From: Armatimonadota bacterium
GTDB lineage: Bacteria; Sysuimicrobiota; Sysuimicrobiia; Sysuimicrobiales; Kaftiobacteriaceae
Direction: 5' to 3'
NCBI GenBank assembly: GCA_031081675.1
Contig: JAVHLZ010000001.1
Location: 3,899-36,294, forward strand
DNA length: 32,396 nucleotides
Made by a program: the position numbers and the translations under genes. Under the pieces are notes generated by a model. The model worked only from the letters and a program-made list of their open reading frames with translations, had not been told where the DNA came from and ran no database searches. This document shows, piece by piece, positions 2,861 through 32,223 of the stretch. The number at the start of each line of letters is the position of its first letter. Positions within the stretch are counted from its first letter, which is position 1.

Positions 2861-3271
2861 GTGCGGATCGTCCTGGACACCAACGTTCTCATTTCCGCCC
2901 TGGCGTTCCCGGGGAGCATCCCCGATCAGCTTCTGTCGCGGGTCCGCCGAGGCGACGCGGAACTGTTCATCTCGCCCTTCATCCTAGACGAGTTCGAGAG
3001 GGTCCTGCGGGAGAAGTTCCGCCTCAGCAGGAGGGAAGCTGCCGCCCGCGTGCGCGCCGTGCGAGCAATGGCCCGTGTCGTTCACACGACGGCGCGGGTC
3101 ACCGTGATCAGGGCCAAGGAGGATGACAACCGGATCCTCGAGTGCGCGGTGGCGGCGGAGGCAGAGTTCCTTGTGACGGGAGACAGGACTCACCTGCTGC
3201 CACTGGGGTCGTATGGGAAGACCCGAATTGTCAGCCCGGCGCAGATGCTGGACATTCTGGGGATACGTTGA
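2861..3271 (+). CDS. PIN-domain toxin (putative RNase, COG1569-like)
   Basis: A 136-residue PIN-domain protein. The acidic residues expected for Mg-dependent RNase activity are present: D6 in VLDTNVLISAL, E44 in ILDEFERVL, D88/D89 in EDDNRILECA and D108 in VTGDRTHLL. The length and the GDRTHLL ending fit the 'putative toxin component, PIN family' group. Such toxins cut RNA (often tRNA) when freed from the antitoxin. The start is GTG at 2861, 13 bp after the antitoxin stop, with no strong ribosome site of its own, so translation may be coupled. The pair is flanked on both sides by palindromic repeat arrays. Confidence 0.88.
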   Translation: MRIVLDTNVLISALAFPGSIPDQLLSRVRRGDAELFISPFILDEFERVLREKFRLSRREAAARVRAVRAMARVVHTTARVTVIRAKEDDNRILECAVAAEAEFLVTGDRTHLLPLGSYGKTRIVSPAQMLDILGIR

Positions 3272-3660: not shown

Positions 3661-4656
3661 ATGAGGATCATGGTGAGGGCGTACGCATCATATCGGGAGG
3701 CCATCGGGGCGCCAGCGGTCAGCGTGGAGGTGCCGGAGGGCGCCACGCCTCAGCAGGTGTGGGCGCACCTGGTCGTCAGGTTTCCCGAACTCCAGAGGCT
3801 ACCTCCCCCGCACAGGTTTGCCGTCAACGAGGAGTACGTAGCGCCGGACAGGGTGCTGGGAGAGAGGGACGAGCTGGTCCTGCTGCCGCCGGTGAGTGGG
3901 GGTCAGGACATACCCCCTCACCCCCGCCCTCTCCCCCATGGGGAGAGGGGAGTGGAGGACTCGCTTGCGGGGACAGTCCCCGGATCCGTTCGGGGACAGT
4001 CCCCGAACCCCGCTGGGGACAGTCACCCGGACCCCCTTCACCCTCGCTCTCTCCCCTCAGGGGACAGGGAAGTGGATGACTCTCCTCCAACGGGGACTGT
4101 CCCCGGGACCAGCGGGGGACAGTCCCCGAACCCCGCTGGGGACAGTCACCCGGACCCCCATGGGGACAGTCCCCCCGAGTCCCCCGGGGACAGTCCCCCT
4201 TATCCCGAACCTCTTCCCCATGGGGAGAGGGAAGGGCACGAGGCGGGGGTGTGGGTGGGGCTGGTGGAGGCGCCGGTCGACGTGGGGGGGATGCTGGAGA
4301 GGGTGCGGCATCCGCAGGCGGGGGCGGTGGTGGTCTTTCTGGGCACGGTGCGGGACAACAGCCGGGGGAGGCGGGTGCAGTTTCTGGAGTACGAGGCGTA
4401 CCGGGAGCTGGCCCTCAAGGAGATGCGGCGTGTGGCGGAGGAAGCCTGCAGGCGGTGGCCGCTGCTGGGGGTGGCCATCGTCCACCGGCTGGGGCGGCTG
4501 GACGTGGGGGAGATCAGCGTGGCCGTGGCGGTCTCCTCGGGTCACCGCACGGAGGCGTTTGAAGCCGGGCGGTTTGCCATCGACACCCTCAAGCAGACGG
4601 TGCCGATCTGGAAGAAGGAGGTGTGGGAGACGGGGGCGGAGTGGGTGGGGGCCTGA
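3661..4656 (+). CDS. MoaD-MoaE fusion (molybdopterin synthase) with repeat-derived linker
   Basis: A 331-residue fusion of both molybdopterin synthase subunits. MoaD (residues 1-81) ends in PPVSGG, the Gly-Gly (80-81) that must become a free thiocarboxylate. MoaE (197-331) keeps GTVRDNSRG, VSSGHR and the catalytic-lysine region KQTVPIWKKE (311-320). The 115-residue linker is built from non-coding repeats. Three palindrome copies read in the same phase (PHPRPLPHGER at 86-96, relatives near 127-138 and 182-191). Eight GGGGACAGTCCCC-type elements lie between, with a 45-bp segment duplicated at 3992 and 4115. The ATG at 3661 is chosen for AGGTG five bases upstream; a GTG at 3640 is less likely. 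A GTG at 4249, with GAGG five bases before it, could give free MoaE. Natural MoaD-MoaE fusions (mycobacterial MoaX) are cleaved after the Gly-Gly. Confidence 0.9.
   Translation: MRIMVRAYASYREAIGAPAVSVEVPEGATPQQVWAHLVVRFPELQRLPPPHRFAVNEEYVAPDRVLGERDELVLLPPVSGGQDIPPHPRPLPHGERGVEDSLAGTVPGSVRGQSPNPAGDSHPDPLHPRSLPSGDREVDDSPPTGTVPGTSGGQSPNPAGDSHPDPHGDSPPESPGDSPPYPEPLPHGEREGHEAGVWVGLVEAPVDVGGMLERVRHPQAGAVVVFLGTVRDNSRGRRVQFLEYEAYRELALKEMRRVAEEACRRWPLLGVAIVHRLGRLDVGEISVAVAVSSGHRTEAFEAGRFAIDTLKQTVPIWKKEVWETGAEWVGA
3909..4236. repeat. Repeat cluster inside the moaD-moaE reading frame
   Basis: C-rich palindrome copies lie at about 3909-3951, 4036-4075 and 4200-4236. The 13-bp palindrome GGGGACAGTCCCC or a one-base variant occurs at 3969, 3992, 4015, 4092, 4115, 4138, 4162 and 4186. 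The stretches 3992-4036 and 4115-4159 are identical over 45 bp, so a recent local duplication enlarged the array. The only other copy of the 13-bp element that I noticed is at 11129-11141. The frame stays open throughout. Confidence 0.92.
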
Positions 4657-5572: not shown

Positions 5573-6856
5573 TGTACGGACTGGAGAGAAGGGTAACAGG
5601 TGTACCGGACACATGGGTAACAGGTTATCACACCCCCCGCAGGTCAATCTGGCCCACGGGGTGGTGGCCGAACAGAACCGTCAGCACGCCGTCAACCCCG
5701 GCGGGCTGCAGAGCTACCGGGTACCCGGTGAATGCTTGGCCGACCCGGAACTGCCGCCCCCGGTAAGAGATCAGGCCGCCCTGCTGAACCCGGCGGACCG
5801 GCAGGCCCACAGGGTAGTCGATCGGGGGCAATCGTTCAGGAAACGGCCGCAGGCTGGGGCGGTAGTGGGCGGCCGGGACGTCCAGCTGGAGCGCATCGTG
5901 GGGTCGCTGGAAGTTGTACAGGTCGCGCCAGCGGTTCAGGGCCGCCTGCAGGTGGGCCAGGTCCCGCCACTGGCGGCCGCGAGCAGTTCCTGCTCCAGGG
6001 TCCGGTGGAAGCGCTCCTCCTTGCCCAGCGTCTGGGGGTGGTAGGCGCGGCTGTGCCGCACGCGTATCCCCAGCCGCAGCAGCCACACCCCCAGCGGAGT
6101 GTAGACATGCTCGGCGTCGCTCCCCCAGGGGCTTCCGTTGTCCACCAGCACGCCATCAGGCAGGCCGTAACGCTGGAAGACCCCGGTGAGGGTGGCCTGA
6201 ACCAGCGGGGTCCGCTGGTGGGGCAGGGCGTGCAGGCACAGGTTGAAGCGCGAGCAGTCGTCCAAGATGGTCAGAGGGTGGGCTCGGCCGGCCAGGGTCA
6301 CGACCGGACGCTTGAAGTCCATTTGCCACAAGCTGTTGGGGACGGGGTGCGTGAAGCGCTGCCAGGTGCGCCGGCCTCCCAGGCTCCCGGTGGCGATCAG
6401 GCCCTGGCGGTGCAGGACGGCCGTGATGGTGCTCCCGGCGGGCAGAGGGCGGATACCCTGGAGCTCCAGGGCGCGGAGGATCTTTCGGGCACCCCAGGTC
6501 GGGTGGGCGGTCCGCAGGGTCACGATGGCCTCTGCGACTCCGGCAGACACCTGGGCGGGCAGGGCGTGGGGGCGACGCGAGCGGTCGGCCAGCCCGTCGA
6601 CACCCTCTTGCCGGTAGCGACCCAGCCACTTGTAGCCGGTTTTGCGGCTGATCTGAAACCGCCGGCACAGCGCGCTGACGCTCACGCCAGCCTGCCGGGC
6701 CATGGTCACGAACTCGTACCGTAGAGCCATGAGATCCACCGTCCTCCAGGGCATAGCTCCCTCCTCAGGTCAGGTGAGGGAATTATGCCAGTACTCTGGA
6801 GCCGACTGTTACCCATGTCTCCGGTACACTTGTCACCTATCTCCCCGGTCCGTACA
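5573..6856. mobile_element. IS481-family insertion sequence inserted in a repeat
   Basis: An element of about 1.28 kb with long imperfect terminal inverted repeats. The left (5573-5623) and right (6806-6856) ends match at about 44 of 51 positions by eye and give TGT...ACA termini. Within each end a GGGTAACAG-type motif recurs (5591 and 5615 on the left), probably transposase binding sites. CCCCTTGG occurs on both sides (5562-5569 and 6857-6864). It extends to 11 bp with one mismatch, so it is a likely target duplication. The repeat copy at 22530-22565 shows the same sequence uninterrupted. Confidence 0.85.
5628..6754 (-). pseudogene. IS481-type DDE transposase, frameshifted
   Basis: A transposase of about 375 codons if read through one -1 shift. 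The first frame (ATG 6754, with AGGAGGGAG before it) encodes a helix-turn-helix region (SVSALCRRFQISRKTGYKWL) and an rve core. The core has catalytic Asp in LWQMDFKRP, Asp in LVDNGSPWG and Glu in GKEERFHRTLEQELL. This frame ends shortly after residue 260. The C-terminal part (WRDLAHLQAALNRWRDLYNF and PVRRVQQGGLISYRGRQFRV) continues in the -1 frame to the TGA at 5628. The break lies near 5975-5985, in a GC-rich run without a classic slippery heptamer. This is more likely inactivation or an assembly indel than programmed frameshifting. Confidence 0.85.
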
Positions 6857-9361: not shown

Positions 9362-10858
<1,497 letters not shown>

Positions 10859-11174
10859 CATCTCCACCTCCCGGCCGCTCAATTGACTGCGTTGAAGGTC
10901 CAAGGTTGAAGGCGAACTGCCTCCCTCACCCTGACCCTCTCCCCTGCCCTCACCCTGGCCCTCTCCCACAGGGAGAGGGGAAAGGTGTTGGTCTCACCCG
11001 GACTCACCCTCTCCCGGAGGGAGAGGGGAGGCGTTATCCCCTCCCAGGCCCTCACCTGACCCTCTCCCAGCAGGGAGAGGGGCTGAAGATTACCTCTCCG
11101 CGGCCCGCACCCTGGGAAGAGGAGCGTCGGGGACTGTCCCCACCTGTCTGGTCCGGTGCCGGTCCCCGGCCTCC
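10859..11174. repeat. GTTGAAGG block, palindrome array and one GGGGACTGTCCCC element
   Basis: No gene in this 316-bp gap. GTTGAAGGTCCAAGGTTGAA lies at about 10890-10909. Palindrome copies follow at about 10918-11090. A single 13-bp palindrome GGGGACTGTCCCC lies at 11129-11141, the same element that is amplified inside the moaD-moaE gene. It lies 34 bp beyond the mrp stop and could also serve as a short hairpin there. Confidence 0.82.
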
Positions 11175-19358: not shown

Positions 19359-19580
19359 GGCGGCGATCCGGGATCCGGGATCAGGAGTCCGGGATCAGCA
19401 TACTCGCTTCCTCATACCCGTCCTCTCCCCAGCCTCTCCCCCGCCTTCTCCCGGGCCCTCACCCTAACCTCCTCCCACGCCCTCACCCTAACCCTCTCCC
19501 ACAGGGAGAGGGAAGGTATTGTCTCTGCCGGGCCCTCACCCGCGCCCTCTCCCGGAGGGAGAGGGAGTCCGTCGCAGGTG
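19359..19580. repeat. GGGATC iterations and palindrome copies
   Basis: GGGATC iterations lie at about 19366-19398, directly before the acyl-CoA dehydrogenase ATG. CCCTCACCC lead-ins and two palindrome copies lie at about 19415-19568. No gene. Confidence 0.8.
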
Positions 19581-26334: not shown

Positions 26335-27558
26335 TCACGTCGTTTTCCCCCGACCTGCGCCATCTCCCTGCCTCTCGGAGGACCAGGTCGGGCCGGCCTC
26401 CACCGGATACTGTTCGTTCATCCACGCCACGATCCCGCCAGCCAGGTTGACGGCGCGGTCGTAGCCGGCGGCCCGCAGGGTCTCGGTCACCGTGGCGCTG
26501 CGCTGGCCGGTGGCGCAGAAGACGATGGTGGTGCGGTCCCGCGGGATCTCCTCCAGCCGCCGGGGGACCTCGGCCATCGGGATGAACAGCGCGCCGGGAA
26601 TGCGGGCGGTGACCCACTCCCACTCCTCCCGCACGTCCAGCAGGACGGCCTCGCCCCGCTCGACCAGGGCCCGGGCCTCGGCCGGGCCTACCTCGGGGAT
26701 GGTCCGGGCGGCCGCCGGCTGGGGCTGGGGGTGCGGCCGCGGGACGCCGCAGAACGCCTCGTAGTCGATCAGCTGGGTGATGGTGGGGCGGTCGCCGCAG
26801 ACCGGGCAGTCGGGGTTGCGGCTCCAGCGGACGGTGCGGATCTCCGCGGCCAGCGCGTCCACGATGAGCAGGCGGTTGACCAGCGTCTCGCCCCGCCCCA
26901 GGAGGATCTTGATGGTCTCCAGCGCCTGCAGGGTGCCCATGAATCCCGCCACGGCGCCGATGATGCCGCCCTCGGCGCAGCTGGGCACCGTGCCGGGCGG
27001 CGGAGGCGTGGGGAACAGGCACCGGTAGCAGCCGCGGCCGGGCACAAAGACGGTGGCGTGGCCCTCCCACCGCAGGATGCTGGCGTCCACCAGGGGCTTG
27101 CCCAGGAACACGCAGGCGTCGTTCACCAGGTAGCGGGTGGGGAAGTTGTCGGAGCCGTTCACCACCACCTCGTAGTCGGCGATGATGTCCAGGGCGTTCT
27201 CGCTGCTGAGGACGGTCTGGTGCGGAATCACGGTCACGTCGGGGTTGATGTCTTCCAGGGTCCGCCGCGCCGACTGGGTCTTGGGGCGCCCGATGTCGTG
27301 GGTGAAGTGGAGGATCTGGCGGTGCAGGTTGGACAGGTCCACCCGGTCGCCGTCCACGATCCCCAGGGTCCCCACCCCGGCCGCCGCCAGGTACAGGGCG
27401 GCGGGGCTGCCCAGGCCGCCGGCGCCGACGATCAGGACCTTGCTGTCCAGCAGGCGGCGCTGCCCGGCCAGGCCGACCTCCTCCAGGATGGTCTGCCGCG
27501 AGTACCGCTCCATCTGCTCGGCGGTGAGCAGCGGACCAGGTCGGGTGACCAGCGTCAT
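26335..27558 (-). CDS. MoeB/ThiF-type adenylyltransferase fused to rhodanese (MoeZ-like)
   Basis: A 407-residue E1-like enzyme that adenylates the C-terminal Gly of a sulfur carrier such as MoaD, ThiS or CysO, with a rhodanese domain that supplies sulfur. E1 part: ATP loop GAGGLGSP (45-52), DLSNLHRQILH, NGSDNFPTRY, conserved Cys C194 (VPSCAEGG) and zinc Cys C177, C180, C251 and C254. Rhodanese part, about 287-385: active-site Cys C348 (IVFCATGQRS). This is the expected activator of the MoaD half of the fusion at 3661-4656. The ATG at 27558 has GAGGAGG about eight bases upstream. The promoter is probably the extended -10 at 27605-27613. The last 20 residues are a disordered tail. Confidence 0.93.
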   Translation of the reverse strand: MTLVTRPGPLLTAEQMERYSRQTILEEVGLAGQRRLLDSKVLIVGAGGLGSPAALYLAAAGVGTLGIVDGDRVDLSNLHRQILHFTHDIGRPKTQSARRTLEDINPDVTVIPHQTVLSSENALDIIADYEVVVNGSDNFPTRYLVNDACVFLGKPLVDASILRWEGHATVFVPGRGCYRCLFPTPPPPGTVPSCAEGGIIGAVAGFMGTLQALETIKILLGRGETLVNRLLIVDALAAEIRTVRWSRNPDCPVCGDRPTITQLIDYEAFCGVPRPHPQPQPAAARTIPEVGPAEARALVERGEAVLLDVREEWEWVTARIPGALFIPMAEVPRRLEEIPRDRTTIVFCATGQRSATVTETLRAAGYDRAVNLAGGIVAWMNEQYPVEAGPTWSSERQGDGAGRGKTT

Positions 27559-31393: not shown

Positions 31394-31819
31394 TCACAGG
31401 TGGCCGGCTGGCTGCCTGACCCGAGCGATGTCGGCCAGGGTCATCTCGGCCAGCACCCGCTCGACGGCCCGGTTGATGGCCTGCCAGACCGGGCGCAGGC
31501 CGCATCCGGGCGCGTAGACGCAGTCCGGGTCGCTGGTTTCCACGCACCACCACGGCGCCGCCGCCCCCTCCAGGACGTCGAACGCCTCGCGGAGGCTGAT
31601 GGCCTCCGGTGGCCGGGCCAGGACGTGGCCGCCGGCCGGGCCGCGCTTGCTGGTCACCAGGCCGGCGCGGCGCAGCACGGCCATCAGCTGGTTCAGGTAG
31701 GGTTCGGGCAGCCCCTGGCGGGCGGCGATGTCGTGGGTCTGGACCGGACCTTCGCCGTAGTGGCTGGCCAGGTCGATCAGCGCCCGCAGGCCGTACTCGG
31801 CACGGGTGGAGACTCTCAT
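31394..31819 (-). CDS. Rrf2-family regulator with three Fe-S-type cysteines (IscR-like)
   Basis: A 141-residue Rrf2 transcription factor. Winged helix: MRVSTRAEYGLRALIDLASH, then LPEPYLNQLMAVLRRAGLV and the wing SKRGPAGGHVLARP. Three cysteines, C92, C100 and C106 (WWCVETSDPDCVYAPGCGL), have the C-x7-C-x5-C spacing of a cluster-binding loop. IscR uses similar cysteines to sense Fe-S status, NsrR nitric oxide. CymR-type members lack them. The ATG at 31819 overlaps the JAMM peptidase stop (ATGA), so the two are coupled. The gene could regulate Fe-S genes such as those at 22590-23246; no binding site was identified. Confidence 0.9.
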   Translation of the reverse strand: MRVSTRAEYGLRALIDLASHYGEGPVQTHDIAARQGLPEPYLNQLMAVLRRAGLVTSKRGPAGGHVLARPPEAISLREAFDVLEGAAAPWWCVETSDPDCVYAPGCGLRPVWQAINRAVERVLAEMTLADIARVRQPAGHL

Positions 31820-32223
31820 CGGATGATCACGCTCGCTTCCGCGATCTGCCCGTCGGCCAGCCGGAACGCCCGGATCACGGGGGCCGACCGGTCGGCCAGG
31901 GAGATGATCACGTACAGCGCCTCCGGGTAGTAGGCCCGGGCCACGTCAGTGGTGGACGGATACGCCGGGGTATGGGTGTGCGAGTGATAAATCCCCACCA
32001 GATCCAGCCCCGCCGCCTCCATGTCCTTGAAGGCCGCCAGCTGCTGGGCGGGATCCATCAGGTACGTGTAGGGGCTGCGGTCGACGTTGGTCCCCCGGTA
32101 GATCCGCTCGACCCGGCCGTCGCGCCCGGCCAGCAGGCCGCAACACTCGTTCGGGTACTCTTCCTCGGCGTGCCGGATCAGTTCCGCCGCCTGCTCCCGG
32201 GTCAGCTCCAGCACCGTCGTCAC
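31816..32223 (-). CDS. JAMM/MPN+ (M67) metallopeptidase
   Basis: A 135-residue JAB/JAMM domain protein. The zinc motif is complete: E26 (YPNECCGLLAG) and H80, H82, S90 and D93 (HSHTHTPAYPSTTD). Eukaryotic relatives remove ubiquitin. Bacterial ones cut after the Gly-Gly of ubiquitin-like sulfur carriers (ThiS, MoaD, CysO) or remove cysteine from CysO, as mycobacterial Mec+ does. The start is a GTG at 32223 with a possible -10 box only seven bases before it, so the transcript may be nearly leaderless. It is coupled to an Rrf2 regulator by ATGA overlap. It is a candidate processing enzyme for the MoaD-MoaE fusion in this window; that link is inference. Confidence 0.92.
   Translation of the reverse strand: MTTVLELTREQAAELIRHAEEEYPNECCGLLAGRDGRVERIYRGTNVDRSPYTYLMDPAQQLAAFKDMEAAGLDLVGIYHSHTHTPAYPSTTDVARAYYPEALYVIISLADRSAPVIRAFRLADGQIAEASVIIR

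Follow-up and report, generated by a model that had tools for sequence, protein, structure and literature searches.

Repeat families of intergenic type in the linker of a fused MoaD–MoaE molybdopterin synthase, placed at its presumed cleavage junction

How can a conserved enzyme carry, inside its own reading frame, a block of repeats that elsewhere lie between genes? The question is raised by moaDE, a gene in the 32,396-nt stretch of DNA analysed here (the window), in which MoaD is followed by MoaE in a single ORF, with Gly-Gly ending MoaD, as in MoaX-type fusions (Table 1). An initial annotation had described a 115-residue link between the two domains, holding three C-rich palindromes and eight elements of the GGGGACAGTCCCC type and made of DNA that is non-coding elsewhere in the window. 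These counts and coordinates match ours, and the same repeat types are indeed intergenic at their other positions in the window.

Table 1. Features of the moaDE locus and of two related genes in the window (window positions).
Feature	Positions	Strand	Basis or remark
moaDE, fused MoaD–MoaE (MoaX-type) molybdopterin synthase, 331 aa	3661..4656	+	ORF, domain search
MoaD domain, residues 1–81, PVSGG end	3661..3903	+	domain search, alignment
Repeat-built linker, 345 nt/115 aa, P/G/S/D-rich, predicted disordered	3904..4248	+	
Tandem unit 1, boxC plus three 13-mers	3913..4032	+	self-comparison
boxC/TM copy 1, CCCCTCACCCCCGCCCTCTCCCCCATGGGGAGAGGG, read as PPHPRPLPHGER	3914..3949	+	exact in blocks
13-mer array A, GGGGACAGTCCCC at 3969 and 3992, GGGGACAGTCACC at 4015; 23-nt period	3969..4027	+	
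Tandem unit 2, diverged copy of unit 1, one 3-nt indel	4033..4155	+	self-comparison
boxC/TM copy 2, degenerate, read as PLHPRSLPSGDR	4034..4069	+	
13-mer array B, at 4092 (T form), 4115, 4138 (CACC variant), 4162, and 4186; 23–24-nt period	4092..4198	+	
boxC/TM copy 3, degenerate, third-strand arm partly lost, read as PPYPEPLPHGER	4196..4231	+	
MoaE domain, residues 197–331	4249..4653	+	domain search, alignment, AF2
MoeB/MoeZ-type adenylyltransferase with rhodanese domain, expected charger of the MoaD C-terminus	26335..27558	-	
JAMM (Prok-JAB) metalloprotease, candidate fusion cutter, full E...HSHTHTPAYPSTTD motif	31816..32223	-	

A domain search of the 331-aa ORF matched Pfam ThiS/MoaD at residues 8–81 (E = 8e-13) and MoaE at residues 202–312 (E = 1e-40). 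In an alignment with 29 homologues, every invariant column is kept in both domains of moaDE—including G80, G81, R231, H295, R296, K311, K318, and K319—with Gly80-Gly81, encoded at 3898–3903, invariant in the 30 sequences. The earlier impression that both enzyme domains keep their key residues and that the gene does not look dead was thus borne out. The two domains, for which a check of purifying selection had been proposed, gave pN/pS values of 0.24–0.57 against relatives; these are averages that also span the time before the insert, with synonymous sites near saturation against the closest relative. A single MoaD/MoaE locus was found in the genome assembly, alongside one MoaC and six molybdoenzyme genes, and moaDE is therefore probably needed by the cell. 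The reading of moaDE as a pseudogene was rejected on the grounds of its retained invariant residues, its single copy, and the presence of molybdoenzymes.

The first codon of the linker directly follows Gly81 of MoaD, and the lengths of the insert and of its two tandem units (120 and 123 nt) are all multiples of three. The two units are about 80% alike; 3′ of unit 2 lie two further 13-mers and then the third palindrome. Six of the eight 13-mers are exact and two have one mismatch, while palindromes 2 and 3 each have two mismatches in their arms.

The linker palindrome is boxC, for which the names PIT and TM are also in use; it is a G/C-rich motif of the intrastrand triplex type, present in more than 260 genomes (PMC4666352). 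The core CCCTCACCC-N3-CCCTCTCCC-loop-GGGAGAGGG is common to the E. coli motif and the linker palindromes; when CCCTCACCC, CCCTCTCCC, and GGGAGAGGG with short loops were sought, copy 1 was exact and copies 2 and 3 were degenerate. Of 5426 E. coli genomes, 5378 contain sites that match a 36-nt copy from elsewhere in the window (19478–19513); identity is 97% across 97% of this copy. Among the matches listed, no annotated feature lay under the E. coli boxC sites, and the boxC peptide, searched against plasmids at the protein level, had weak matches only, none over an annotated feature. In E. coli, boxC is reported to be always intergenic (PMC4666352), whereas here three copies lie within an ORF, placing the motif inside a coding frame. 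No RPE model was present among the NCBIfam hits; the palindrome is boxC, and does not belong to the Rickettsia palindromic element (RPE) family. The boxC core is common in the window and rare in the rest of the genome: 30 of its 36 exact genome matches fall within about 2% of the genome (G000:C1:604–48406; window 1–32396), and 28 of these 30 are on the + strand regardless of gene direction. The boxC cluster in the window is a local, one-directional expansion.

The second family is spread genome-wide. The exact 13-mer GGGGACWGTCCCC was found at 42 sites, against about 0.4 expected in 2.29 Mb at 70% GC, and these sites make up ten arrays, mostly with a 23–24-nt period, and two single sites. Six of the 42 are in the moaDE linker, and one, at 11129, is elsewhere in the window. 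The 13-mer was not found printed in the literature searched. It can be compared with GGGGWSAS, the repeat motif of TIR-associated tyrosine transposases (TIRYT) (PMC3733652): GGGGACAG fits this motif, the repeats form arrays and dimers, and they adjoin a Y1_Tnp gene (G000:C39). The differences are the 13-bp self-complementary unit and 23–24-nt period found here, and a pairing of terminal inverted repeats around the transposase that is only putative. With the palindrome recognised as boxC and the 13-mer similar to the GGGGWSAS repeats linked to Y1 transposases, the view that the repeats are of unknown sequence can be set aside.

Four Y1_Tnp genes were found in the genome; this 13-mer lies just upstream of one, and related palindromes accompany the others. 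At the first (G000:C39, 9730–10056), 13-mers lie at 10216 and 10263, together with variants, on one side of the gene only; at the gene on C34, a related repeat lies on both sides. The Y1 transposases may have moved the repeats. Each Y1_Tnp gene (L073, L074, L075, and L076) has its own version of a GG..CC palindrome nearby, as if it were a private repeat. In another genome of the same family (G008), 13-mers occur in pairs 77 nt apart (e.g., C56:6732 and C56:6809), unlike the 23-nt arrays here. On the minus strand of the window, at 5628–6754, translation suggests a transposase-like ORF split into two overlapping frames. A general habit of 13-mer insertion into genes was considered and rejected: in a scan of 20 open frames that cross the other ten 13-mer sites, none had Pfam domains flanking the array (0 of 20). 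One single 13-mer lies within an AMP-binding gene, which is within chance expectation.

The history of the gene was approached through 61 relatives and then through the class of 43 genomes. Repeat-free forms, which the initial annotation had proposed to look for, were found: fused genes with a PVSGG or PISGG junction occur throughout these relatives, with linkers of about zero to about 30 residues. The lineage itself lies near MAGs that carry the label Armatimonadota. In the closest relative (G005), with domain identities of 67% and 74%, a single residue separates Gly-Gly from MoaE. Since class relatives share both fusion and junction, with short repeat-free linkers, the fusion is old and the insert secondary. 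As far as sampled, the comparison of sequences indicates that the fusion is ancestral and that the repeats are a lineage-specific insert; creation of the fusion by the repeats was rejected accordingly. The longest linker among more distant fusions from Chloroflexi, Ardenticatenia, and Paenibacillaceae has 32 residues. This linker (L098, at about 3166–3270, from a Bacillota MAG) resembles a short tandem repeat (SAEAN), and is perhaps a second repeat-built linker.

A same-family genome, G006, carries both repeat types; in its moaDE gene (L066, on G006:C84), Ns replace the sequence between roughly residue 55 of MoaD and residue 234 of MoaE, which leaves the linker unscorable. That these Ns cover the same junction would be in keeping with an assembly artefact, in which the linker would be misjoined or wrongly sized and the real gene would have a short or different one; so would the source, one fragmented assembly of 50 contigs, as short reads can misassemble GC-rich repeats. 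Such an artefact is nevertheless very improbable: the contig is 163 kb long, none of the other repeat sites has a sequence identical to that of the linker, roughly one position in five differs between its two tandem units, and the reading frame is unbroken to either side.

Whether the intact frame itself carries information depends on how often such repeats are open by chance. The initial annotation had held that all three palindromes are read in one phase although all phases are open. Three of six frames are in fact open across the linker: a stop at 4077 closes the third forward frame, and stops within the linker close all but one of the reverse frames. The palindromes, spaced by 120 and 162 nt, do share a phase; since copies 1 and 2 stem from one tandem duplication, this amounts to roughly one independent coincidence and is weak evidence. 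The 13-mers of the linker are read in all three phases. Among comparable 345-nt frames, 12–16% are open, and at every one of the other ten 13-mer sites at least two of the six frames run through without a stop. Combining this open fraction with a length divisible by three (0.12–0.16 × 1/3) gives an intact in-phase frame by composition and length alone in about 4–5% of cases, which is suggestive, not proof.

The readiness with which GC-rich, stop-poor repeats stay open also lends something to an alternative in which the domains are made separately: MoaE would start at an internal GTG near 4249, with most of the linker unneeded and its open frame incidental. Candidate signals are present, with a purine-rich, Shine–Dalgarno (SD)-like GGGGAGAGGG at 4222–4231 (part of boxC copy 3), GAGG at 4240, and then GTG at 4249. 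We consider this alternative unlikely, as the frame survived an insert of 345 nt as well as a duplication that includes a 3-nt indel—the outcome put above at about 4–5% without constraint—and as class relatives encode both domains in one chain.

Constraint on the frame differs from selection on the sequence that it encodes. Comparison of units 1 and 2 in the moaDE frame gave a pN/pS of 1.02, or 0.84 once the four leading codons, of uncertain homology, were removed; the bootstrap interval is wide (0.35–2.27) and leaves room for weak constraint on the linker. In the other frames the ratio is about 1.2. GC content by codon position is 0.79/0.62/0.70 in the linker versus 0.74/0.46/0.93 in MoaE, so that the coding pattern is absent from the linker. 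In the AlphaFold2 model, pLDDT reaches at least 90 for 192 residues, which comprise nearly all of both domains, and is below 50 for most of the linker. Change in the linker appears about neutral, with only the frame kept and no sign of a selected new sequence; a tolerated spacer fits. The proposal that non-coding repeats are making new protein sequence therefore holds in part: the repeats are probably translated as a disordered spacer, and a selected sequence is not what a pN/pS of about 1 suggests. A gained and selected function—as spacer, in regulation of cutting, or through an effect of its RNA or DNA structure on the gene—would agree with the kept frame and length and with the stable triplex DNA that the E. 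coli boxC motif forms in vitro (PMC4666352). The internal-copy ratio near 1, the missing codon-position signature, the low predicted order, and the fact that relatives manage without the insert all speak against it and make it a very unlikely reading.

Active MoaD requires a free C-terminal Gly-Gly, which gives the position of the insert its significance. In Mycobacterium tuberculosis, cleavage of the fusion MoaX takes place behind Gly82 and is required for function (PMC4326299); the Deinococcus radiodurans fusion is cut by the JAMM protease DRJAMM (PMC8832034). That the insert lies right after Gly-Gly, where related fusions are cut, is the main mechanistic point, and was missing from the initial annotation. 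We think it probable that the whole history ran as follows. The short junction of an ancestral MoaX-type fusion would have been enlarged by boxC and 13-bp palindromic repeats, and by a tandem duplication, with the frame kept. By analogy with the related fusions, a protease—most likely the JAMM enzyme of the window—would cut after Gly81, and the freed MoaD C-terminus would be charged by MoeB. Because the insert starts directly after Gly81, such a cut would leave a normal MoaD, and the 115 repeat-encoded residues would be retained at the N-terminus of MoaE as a disordered tail, which would make the junction a forgiving place. The insert would be tolerated, not selected for its sequence. A JAMM gene is present in 41 of the 43 class genomes, this one included; against its role as the cutter, the single JAMM enzyme in the window is encoded 27 kb from moaDE, and JAMM proteins act on other sulfur carriers too.

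More generally, a MoaX-type junction cut after Gly-Gly may serve as an insulated landing site, at which repeats become coding without harm to either enzyme, and moaDE may hold the first boxC described as read into protein; we give this broader proposal even chances. If true, it would offer an early, neutral stage of repeat-to-protein conversion that can be tested in a conserved enzyme, and would illustrate how a sizeable stretch of non-coding repeats could be accommodated by such an enzyme at a presumed proteolytic site. Selection can be measured, and the neutral-first idea tested, with the repeat-free relatives for comparison and the two duplicated units of the linker.

Small repeats in genes are already known: in-frame palindromic inserts have been described for Rickettsia palindromic elements and GTAG/CGTC REPs (PMC2229807, PMC3733652) and also for ERIC-like units, and flexible linkers have been proposed as repeat-tolerant sites (PMC3733652). 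The novelty of moaDE lies in the repeat families involved, in a boxC that forms part of a coding frame, and in an insertion point where cleavage is expected. The parallel with Rickettsia elements of a different sequence, drawn at the outset, is apt: moaDE, too, carries repeats that are inserted in frame and absent from its relatives. Like these elements and the intragenic REPs, its repeats are small palindromes in frame in a conserved gene, tolerated and probably in a flexible place; they differ in belonging to other families, in mixing boxC with 13-mer arrays, and in occupying a junction expected to be cleaved. With MoaX of M. tuberculosis and DR2607 of D. radiodurans, moaDE shares the domain order, the junction Gly-Gly, and the presence of rhodanese-MoeB and JAMM in the genome. 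In those fusions the cut has been shown and the linker is short, whereas here the cut is predicted and 115 repeat-encoded residues follow it.
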